Part shown: in pieces, positions 44,365-46,265 of the stretch
Position numbering within the stretch: the stretch's first letter is position 1
How the letters are laid out: every line of letters starts with the position of its first letter
Origin: Aeropyrum camini SY1 = JCM 12091
GTDB lineage: Archaea; Thermoproteota; Thermoprotei_A; Sulfolobales; Acidilobaceae
Assembly: GCF_000591035.1 (NCBI RefSeq)
Contig: NC_022521.1
Coordinates: 868,001 to 932,000, forward strand
Length of the DNA stretch: 64,000 nt
Reading direction: 5' to 3'
Translations under genes and position numbers: made by a program
Notes under the pieces: generated by a model
Told to the model about the DNA's origin: nothing
The model's database searches: none
The model's input: the letters and a program-made list of their open reading frames with translations, nothing else

Positions 44365-45792
44365 TTGCCGATACAGGCACGCTCAACCCGGGTACCCTGG
44401 GTTATAAAGTATAGGCCGAGGCGTGTGGAAGACGTTGTCAACCAGGATCAGGCTAAGAAGGTCCTTGCCCCCTGGTTTAAAGCGTGGCTCGGGGGGAGGA
44501 AACCCGATAAGAGGGCCGCCCTCCTATACGGCCCCCCAGGCGTGGGCAAGACGAGCCTCGTCGAAGCTATAGCTAACGAGTTTAACCTGGAGATGATAGA
44601 GCTTAACGCGAGCGACTATAGGAGGAGGAGCGATATCGAGCGTATAGTCGGTGCTGCCTCCCGCAAGAAGAGCATGTTCCGGAGGGGTGTTGTGATCCTG
44701 TTAGACGAGGTGGACGGCATAAACCCCAGGGAGGACGCGGGGGGTATAGAGGCTCTCCTCTCCATCATAAAGACTACAGAGAACCCCATAGTGATGACGG
44801 CCAACGACCCGTGGAAAGACTTTCTGAGGCCCCTGAGGGAGGCCAGCCTCCTGGTCGAGTTCAAACCGCTAACTCTTACCCAGATAATCTCCGTCCTCCA
44901 GAGGATATGCGAGGCTGAAAGGATAGAGTGCGAGAGGGACGCCCTACGCTACATAGCTGAGAGGAGTGAGGGCGACCTCAGGTCGGCTATAAACGACCTC
45001 CAGGCAGTTGCCGAGGGCTACGGGAGGGTGACGCTAACACTAGCCAGGGAGATAGTCAGGGGGAGGGAGAAGAGCATAGACATTTGGAGAACGCTAAACC
45101 AGGTGTTCTACAAGCCCAGGCAGGCGTGGATTGCGAGGAAGGCGGTAAGCCAGAGCGAGAAGGACTATGAGGAGCTGATAGGCTGGATAAACGACAACAT
45201 ACCCAGGAAGTATGGAGAGCCTTCAGACCTGTTCAGGGCCTTCGACGCCCTGGCTAGAGCGACTGTATTCCTCGGAAGGGCCAAGTTCGGGGGTAACTGG
45301 GAGCTGCTTTCGTACGTTTTCGACCTAATGGGACCGGGTGTAGCCTATGCTAGGATGGAGGGGGAGGTCCTCAAGACTAGATACTCCTACCCTGAGAAGA
45401 TCAGGATGATGGCCCAGCTCCGCGGGGTTAGGGAGACTAGGGAGAAGCTGGCTGAGGTCCTCGCCAAGAGGCTTTTAACAAGCAAGAGAACCGTGAAGAC
45501 CGAGGTCCTCCCTATCCTACATTACATGTTCAGGAGCTCCAGAGACCCCACAAAGCCTGCCTTGATAGCTCTGGAATACGGGTTCACAGAGAGCATGATA
45601 GAGCTTCTCGCGGGCAGCCGTAAGAGCGAGATACTGAAGGCGGTGGCCACACTCAAGAAGGCGAGGCTCTCTGAGAAACCCGCTAAACCCTCGGCCGCAG
45701 AGGCAGGAGGGGAGAAAGGCGGGGAGAGGCGGAAAGCCAGGAGGAGGGAGAGGAAGGGGGTGGGCCTCGACTTCTTCCTCGGAGAACAGTAG
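44365..45792 (+). CDS. rfcL: Replication factor C large subunit
   Basis: The 475-residue large subunit of the archaeal clamp loader. It has PWVIKYRPRRVEDVVNQ, Walker A GPPGVGKTSLVEA and Walker B VVILLDEVDGI, and no SRC motif, as in other large subunits. The highly charged C-terminal part (about 435-465) ends GVGLDFFLGEQ, a PIP-box-like sequence for PCNA contact. ATG or TTG start, 4 bases after rfcS. No intein. A structured element follows about 50 bases after the stop. Confidence 0.96.
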   Translation: MPIQARSTRVPWVIKYRPRRVEDVVNQDQAKKVLAPWFKAWLGGRKPDKRAALLYGPPGVGKTSLVEAIANEFNLEMIELNASDYRRRSDIERIVGAASRKKSMFRRGVVILLDEVDGINPREDAGGIEALLSIIKTTENPIVMTANDPWKDFLRPLREASLLVEFKPLTLTQIISVLQRICEAERIECERDALRYIAERSEGDLRSAINDLQAVAEGYGRVTLTLAREIVRGREKSIDIWRTLNQVFYKPRQAWIARKAVSQSEKDYEELIGWINDNIPRKYGEPSDLFRAFDALARATVFLGRAKFGGNWELLSYVFDLMGPGVAYARMEGEVLKTRYSYPEKIRMMAQLRGVRETREKLAEVLAKRLLTSKRTVKTEVLPILHYMFRSSRDPTKPALIALEYGFTESMIELLAGSRKSEILKAVATLKKARLSEKPAKPSAAEAGGEKGGERRKARRRERKGVGLDFFLGEQ

Positions 45793-45844: not shown

Positions 45845-45927
45845 GGCCAGCCCCACCTCCCCGCCCCGCCGATGCCAGCGGGACACCCGCTAGGATGAGG
45901 CGGGGAGCGCACGGGGCTGGCCACACA
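45845..45927 (+). ncRNA. Candidate H/ACA-like small RNA
   Basis: The sequence folds as two nested stems. The outer stem is GGCCAGCCCC (45845-45854) with GGGGCTGGCC (45913-45922), 10 perfect pairs. The inner stem is CTCCCCGCC (45857-45865) with GGCGGGGAG (45899-45907), 9 perfect pairs. An apical stem AGCGGG/CCCGCT closes it. The internal loop (2 and 5 bases) resembles a pseudouridylation pocket. ACACA follows the outer stem directly, and 15 bases separate the pocket top from ACA, the spacing required in archaeal H/ACA guides. A clean kink-turn is not evident, though GATG and GATGA flank the apical stem. Confidence 0.45.
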
Positions 45928-45944: not shown

Positions 45945-46265
45945 CTACTCTCCGGTCTCCAGTTCTCGCCTCAGCTTTAAGAGCAGGCTGGTTGGAGCCT
46001 CCACATAGACTTCACCCTTATCCTCCACAATACTTATGCCCAGCCTCTCCAGTCGTTCCGAGTACGTGGGGGCCGATAGCTCGTGTAGCAGGTCCTCGAC
46101 GACATAGCTTGTGGGCTCCTCCCTCTTCGCCCTGATTAGGCTTGAGATGTGTATCTTAAACCTCTCCTGGCCGGAGGCCTCTAGAATATCGATGACACCC
46201 GCCCTAAGCCTCGCAAACCCCCTCAAAAGCCTGAGTAGAGTTTCAACCGGGTCCTCCCTAGTCAA
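45945..46265 (-). CDS. Small helical hypothetical protein beside AIP synthase
   Basis: 106 residues with no recognised family. The N-terminal half (VETLLRLLRGFARLRAGVIDILEAS) and middle (HISSLIRAKREEPTSYVVEDLLHEL) are helical, and the C-terminus has a beta hairpin, GISIVEDKGEVYVEAPTSLLLKL, so a winged helix-like DNA-binding fold is possible. It overlaps the archaetidylinositol phosphate synthase gene by 4 bases and is probably co-translated with it. Confidence 0.6.
   Translation of the reverse strand: MTREDPVETLLRLLRGFARLRAGVIDILEASGQERFKIHISSLIRAKREEPTSYVVEDLLHELSAPTYSERLERLGISIVEDKGEVYVEAPTSLLLKLRRELETGE

Follow-up and report, generated by a model that had tools for sequence, protein, structure and literature searches.

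The closest described counterparts of the RNA element reported here are the 10/5/9 and 10/6/9 H/ACA sRNAs of Pyrococcus and Archaeoglobus, in which a lower stem, an internal pocket and an ANA box are combined with L7Ae-type nucleotides and a 10-layer upper stem that ends in tandem GA (PMC4652768). Among 15 productive folds of P. abyssi, 14 have this 10-layer length, the ANA box of productive folds lies 14–15 nt below the pocket top, and a 3-nt spacer on the target is described as unfavourable (PMC4652768). An earlier model of the P. abyssi RNA Pa19, directed at 16S U1017, had 16 nt between the ANA box and the upper stem together with a 3-nt target spacer, and Hvo2a was modelled with a third unpaired residue (PMC4652768). 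The H/ACA-like RNAs sR201–sR210 of Pyrobaculum form a crenarchaeal set with an embedded K-turn, a degenerate or missing ANA box in some members and, in most, a lost lower stem.

The element described below shares its lower stem, pocket, GA-ended 10-layer upper stem, L7Ae-type nucleotides and, in its Aeropyrum copies, ANA box with the Pyrococcus and Archaeoglobus sRNAs, from which it differs in the G.A pocket-closing layer and the 16 nt to the ANA box of its Aeropyrum copies, in a non-textbook K-turn, in a 3-nt spacer on the candidate target and in having no Rfam entry. The 16-nt plus 3-nt geometry is that of the earlier Pa19 model, for which extra stacked G.A layers were invoked as well; unlike the RNA here, Pa19 has since been refolded to 10/6/9, which avoids the 3-nt spacer. 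The likeness to the Pyrobaculum RNAs lies in the crenarchaeal host, the embedded K-turn-type motif and an ANA box that some copies lack, but the lower stem is kept here, and it is lengthened in two distant homologs. In kind the RNA is ordinary, an unlisted member of the known H/ACA class. The element is very probably a gene for a single-hairpin archaeal H/ACA sRNA on the plus strand, guiding pseudouridylation; it would add a well-supported guide RNA gene, not in Rfam, to a lineage in which few H/ACA RNAs have been described, and its pocket register was set by covariation rather than by the longest perfect stem.

Locus, fold and strand

The window, that is, the whole 64-kb stretch of DNA that was analysed, corresponds to positions 868001–932000 of C1 in a single-contig genome of 1,595,994 bp (G000). 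The RNA element spans window positions 45845–45926 (+). It is separated by 52 nt from the upstream stop codon of rfcL, which encodes the clamp-loader large subunit (44365–45792, plus strand) and is used here as context only, and is followed by a convergent minus-strand ORF at 45945–46265. The element is single-copy in its own genome; a blastn match at C1:436824, considered as a paralog, was rejected as a brief run of GC motifs that lacks the fold.

Folding gave −56.3 kcal/mol, which corresponds to z = −5.9 relative to dinucleotide-shuffled sequences. The initial annotation, made from the window sequence, had proposed a perfect 10-bp outer stem, a perfect 9-bp inner stem and an ACA box 15 nt from the inner pairing. 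The outer stem (GGCCAGCCCC at 45845–45854 with GGGGCTGGCC at 45913–45922), the ACA directly after it at 45923–45925 and the 15-nt distance are all present. Its statement that the stems exceed chance even in GC-rich DNA agrees with the z score above and with a scan of the 64 kb, in which a perfect 10-bp stem of this span enclosing a second stem of 7 bp or more was found here alone, against 0.05 expected from shuffled windows. The inner 9-bp stem (CTCCCCGCC at 45857–45865 with GGCGGGGAG at 45899–45907) is likewise a perfect pairing, but it shows no covariation and competes with another register, as discussed below.

The strand was assigned by comparison with G004, which we take to be A. pernix K1. 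Both stem substitutions in this relative (C-G to U-G and G-C to G-U) stay paired on the plus strand, whereas the complementary strand would carry A.C mismatches at both. Since the G-U pairs survive only in plus-strand RNA, the RNA is probably read from that strand, and both strand and structure are well supported by sequence comparison.

Homologs and the register of the upper stem

In G004, the element is syntenic after rfcL and 81% identical over 80 nt, with diverged, poorly alignable intergenic flanks. The alignment with A. pernix downstream of rfcL that the initial annotation had proposed as a check recovered the element with its stems paired through G-U. The 3′ half (GGGGAGCGCACGGGGCUGGCCA) is identical between the window species and G004; the apical 20 nt differ greatly, and an apical hairpin is still formed in each. 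A third Aeropyrum copy was found in G002 (L169/L178) with a two-sequence covariance model, and a three-sequence model detected further homologs in two related genera, L180 (G046) in one and L181 (G035) and L182 (G013) in the other, with modest E-values of 0.001–0.016 per genome. All three keep GCUCCCC/GCGCA and the UGA motif, and their pocket measures 7/5 nt (subfamily 75); between L181 and L182, which occupy syntenic positions, a stem pair has changed by compensation (A-U to G-C). The pocket segments CUCCCC (5′) and GCGCA (3′) are invariant across the six homologs.

The 5′ strand contains CCCCGCC twice, so that GGCGGGG can pair with either 45859–45865 or 45864–45870. In a structure-blind MAFFT alignment of the three Aeropyrum sequences (A4), which provides an unbiased covariation test, the inner register, 45864–45870 with 45899–45905, stacked on the GA motif, was the only one that covaried: it had two doubly compensated pairs and none broken, and the lower stem contributed two more, giving 4 of 17 pairs in the fold, against no doubly compensated pair in every one of the slid structures. 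The register proposed initially had no double compensation and two broken cells, with broken pairs in the third species. Because only the inner register covaries, the upper stem was placed 7 nt inward of the earlier one, and the earlier 9-bp helix is read as an alternative that takes up the 5′ guide. This lengthens the pocket on its 5′ side relative to the initial description, and the proposed AC/CGCAC is replaced by CUCCCC/GCGCA. In the six-sequence alignment (A5), which was fitted to the model, so that its scores lean towards the structure, 97% of cells were paired and 27 doubly changed cells fell in 13 of 17 pairs, a result reached by 0 of 500 shuffles.

Several other matches were set aside. 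The G003 match (L038) has only part of the 5′ strand in common, and those in G018, G039, G158, G137, G098 and G012 differ in their pockets and represent either separate H/ACA-like RNAs or chance folds. Among these, the covariance models yielded H/ACA-like hairpins with GA...UGA motifs: L171 (G039), L174/L179 (G018), L230 and L237 (G158), L231 (G012), L232 (G137) and L235 (G098).

Architecture and H/ACA class

The lower stem is formed by GGCCAGCCCC and GGGGCUGGCC (45913–45922) and covaries in both alignments; its innermost pair is weak, and its effective length is 9 bp. It is followed by the 5′ guide strand ACCUCCCC at 45855–45862, with the invariant CUCCCC at 45857–45862, and by a pocket-closing layer in which G45863 lies opposite A45906; this layer is G.A here, and the more distant homologs have G-C or A-U in its place. 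The upper (GA) stem, in the covarying register, pairs CCCCGCC (45864–45870) with GGCGGGG (45899–45905), the latter being GGUGGGG in G004 with G-U kept. Between these strands lies the putative L7Ae-type K-turn/K-loop region (45871–45898), with a 5′ GA at 45871–45872, a variable apical hairpin and a 3′ AUGA at 45895–45898; GA/AUGA is kept, the apex diverges. The 3′ guide strand GCGCAC (45907–45912) contains the invariant GCGCA at 45907–45911 and leads into the lower stem and the ACA box, which is AUA in G004 and ACA in G002.

The assignment to the H/ACA class made in the initial annotation agrees with two conserved stems that enclose an internal pocket and are kept by compensatory change, with the invariant pocket, and with the 10-layer GA stem, the Aeropyrum ANA box and the L7Ae-type GA/UGA nucleotides. 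Ten layers separate the pocket from the second GA-type pair in six of six sequences, a count that includes the G.A closing layer in three sequences and a U.U pair in one: the layers are G.A + 7 + 2 in the three Aeropyrum copies, 7 + U.U + 2 in L180, and 8 + 2 in L181 and L182. The distance from the pocket top down to the ANA box (ACA, AUA and ACA in the Aeropyrum copies) is 16 nt. No ANA box was seen in L180–L182, and L180 and L182 have an extended lower stem; either function has diverged in these three, or the ANA box is dispensable there. The 5′ GA (or AA) and the 3′ UGA are conserved across homologs. The earlier remark that a standard K-turn cannot be drawn cleanly applies to the window and A. 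pernix copies, where the 3′ bulge is oversized or ambiguous, as it is elsewhere among the homologs, but not to the G002 copy, where by inspection a clean one can be drawn. A covariance search, also suggested initially, matched no Rfam family to the element: none scored above the gathering threshold, and permissive thresholds gave only chance miRNA-like matches.

By analogy with known H/ACA RNPs, the RNA, if transcribed from this locus, would fold into a lower stem of about 9–10 bp, a pocket (ACCUCCCC/GCGCAC), a 10-layer upper stem composed of the G.A closing layer, seven Watson-Crick pairs and tandem G.A, the GA/UGA motif and a variable apical hairpin. L7Ae would bind the GA motif, and Cbf5-Nop10-Gar1 would bind the pocket, the lower stem and the ANA box; both guide strands may then pair with the target RNA, and Cbf5 may convert the U between them to pseudouridine. 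A Cbf5 homolog is reported in A. pernix (PMC2738675).

A positive control was provided by L170 (G038:C1:1066757–1066828), a match of the two-sequence covariance model with the pocket CGGGUCA/GUUAC, a G.A closing layer and an ACA box 14 nt below. It fits 23S helix 69 of its own genome, GUAAC-UC-UGACUC, with UN spacing and as the top rRNA match by 10 kcal/mol; this exact fit supports the architecture as read here, including the G.A layer. Note that helix 69 is GUAAC-CC-UGAC in both Aeropyrum genomes (L073, L166), where the target U is C; by inspection this position is the equivalent of E. coli 1915, the U is otherwise conserved, and G038 retains it (L238:4371) together with the fitting L170.

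Candidate targets and alternative explanations

The initially predicted target, GUGCG-UN-GU, had no match in rRNA: none of the GUGCG occurrences in the rRNA operon also matches on the 5′ side, and the best rRNA score in that register was equalled by 337 of 1000 shuffled guides. The prediction was wrong because the register was. The corrected pocket predicts UGCGC-UN-GGGGAG, for which no exact site, with G-U allowed, exists anywhere in the window's genome. In the two RNA classes scanned individually, rRNA (5S excepted) and tRNA, no canonical UN-spaced site was found; among tRNAs, including intron-containing ones, every candidate had two or more mismatches. The best rRNA site was 16S GACGCGC-U-GA-GGGGAGGUG, in which the 3′ guide forms 4 bp and the 5′ guide 9 bp (CACCUCCCC); its U, in the context GACGCGC-U-GAGGGGAG, is position 1070 of the unspliced 16S and Rfam SSU position 981. 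One of 2000 shuffled guides was as good in the window species, a p-value that is optimistic given the post hoc choice of registers and spacers; when just the conserved core was scored, 93 of 2000 did as well. Pairing at this site leaves three residues unpaired, a 3-nt spacer, and the invariant A of GCGCA unpaired too. This 16S uridine is put forward as a provisional target, the leading guess although a doubtful one; rough numbering suggests that it lies near the Pa19 site, at a different position. In the assemblies of G002, G013, G035 and G046, 16S and 23S were absent or not found, most of these MAGs having no 16S match.

Two further sites were rejected. The 23S site GUGUG-UA-CGGGGGG attains UN spacing only if two 3′-strand residues are skipped, is equalled by 67 of 1000 shuffles and is unsuited to L181. 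The pre-23S spacer sequence AGCGCUGGGGGAG, conserved in both species, sits in an rRNA processing stem and was judged coincidental. That stem, about 115–130 nt past the 23S 3′ end (L073), holds GGYGGGGAGCGC, identical to the 3′ strand of the guide RNA; the C/U change that distinguishes the two species in the guide recurs there, probably by coincidence.

A bolder reading, which we regard as speculative and unlikely, is that of an Aeropyrum/Acidilobaceae H/ACA lineage with an invariant pocket, in which the ANA box was dropped, two of three distant lower stems were lengthened and a 16S target is reached through a 3-nt spacer. If true, an RNP anchored without ANA and with such a spacer would break two accepted rules of guided pseudouridylation, and the one 16S uridine provides a specific test of whether such a complex can work. 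Somewhat less probable still is an H/ACA-derived or L7Ae-binding RNA that no longer guides, or not only, its loop pairing without isomerisation in a stable RNP. The lack of a canonical rRNA or tRNA target, the absence of ANA in three distant homologs, two with extended lower stems, and the pocket A that the 16S candidate does not explain would all suit such an RNA; against it stand the retention of CUCCCC/GCGCA at an unvarying 10-layer geometry, for which a purely structural RNA would have no use, and the presence of ANA in three of three Aeropyrum copies.

The position of the element, 52 nt past the rfcL stop codon and ahead of a convergent gene, would also suit a folded 3′ terminus of the rfcS-rfcL mRNA, a stabiliser or terminator-like hairpin that does not act in trans. 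This is very improbable, since homologs with the same pocket lie elsewhere in G002, G013, G035 and G046 without a link to rfcL, and a terminator would not keep its internal-loop sequence. By inspection of translations rather than family search, the G002 copy lies beside uL11-uL1 ribosomal-protein/OsmC genes, the G013 and G035 copies between DUF488-like and B3/4-like genes, and the G046 copy beside other genes; the B3/4-like protein encoded next to the G013 copy shares 54% identity with one encoded near the G002 copy. Because the six copies occupy at least four gene contexts, the element is read as a free-standing RNA gene rather than one acting in cis on rfcL; it may still be transcribed together with rfcL and then processed.

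That the element is the A. pernix RNA directing pseudouridylation at position 35 in pre-tRNA-Tyr, an H/ACA RNA that PMC4652768 cites as reported and that likewise has a single H/ACA motif, is hardly credible, the site GGCUG-UA-GUGGG requiring a CAGCC/CCCAC pocket in place of GCGCA/CUCCCC. A chance hairpin, conceivable in a GC-rich window where perfect 10-bp stems alone are not rare (6 against 3.45 expected), is refuted by the strong covariation, with the nested stems, fold z score and syntenic conservation also against it.

Three additional features were observed in other RNAs. The 16S of the window species (L073 5669–7318, minus strand) is interrupted twice, by about 60 nt (a probable mini-intron) downstream of GGCCGCAAGG and by another insertion that follows GUCGCCAG. 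An intron-containing pre-tRNA (L146/L161) has CCUGGGGAGCGYAUCCCC, of which GGGGAGCG is common with the guide RNA strand.
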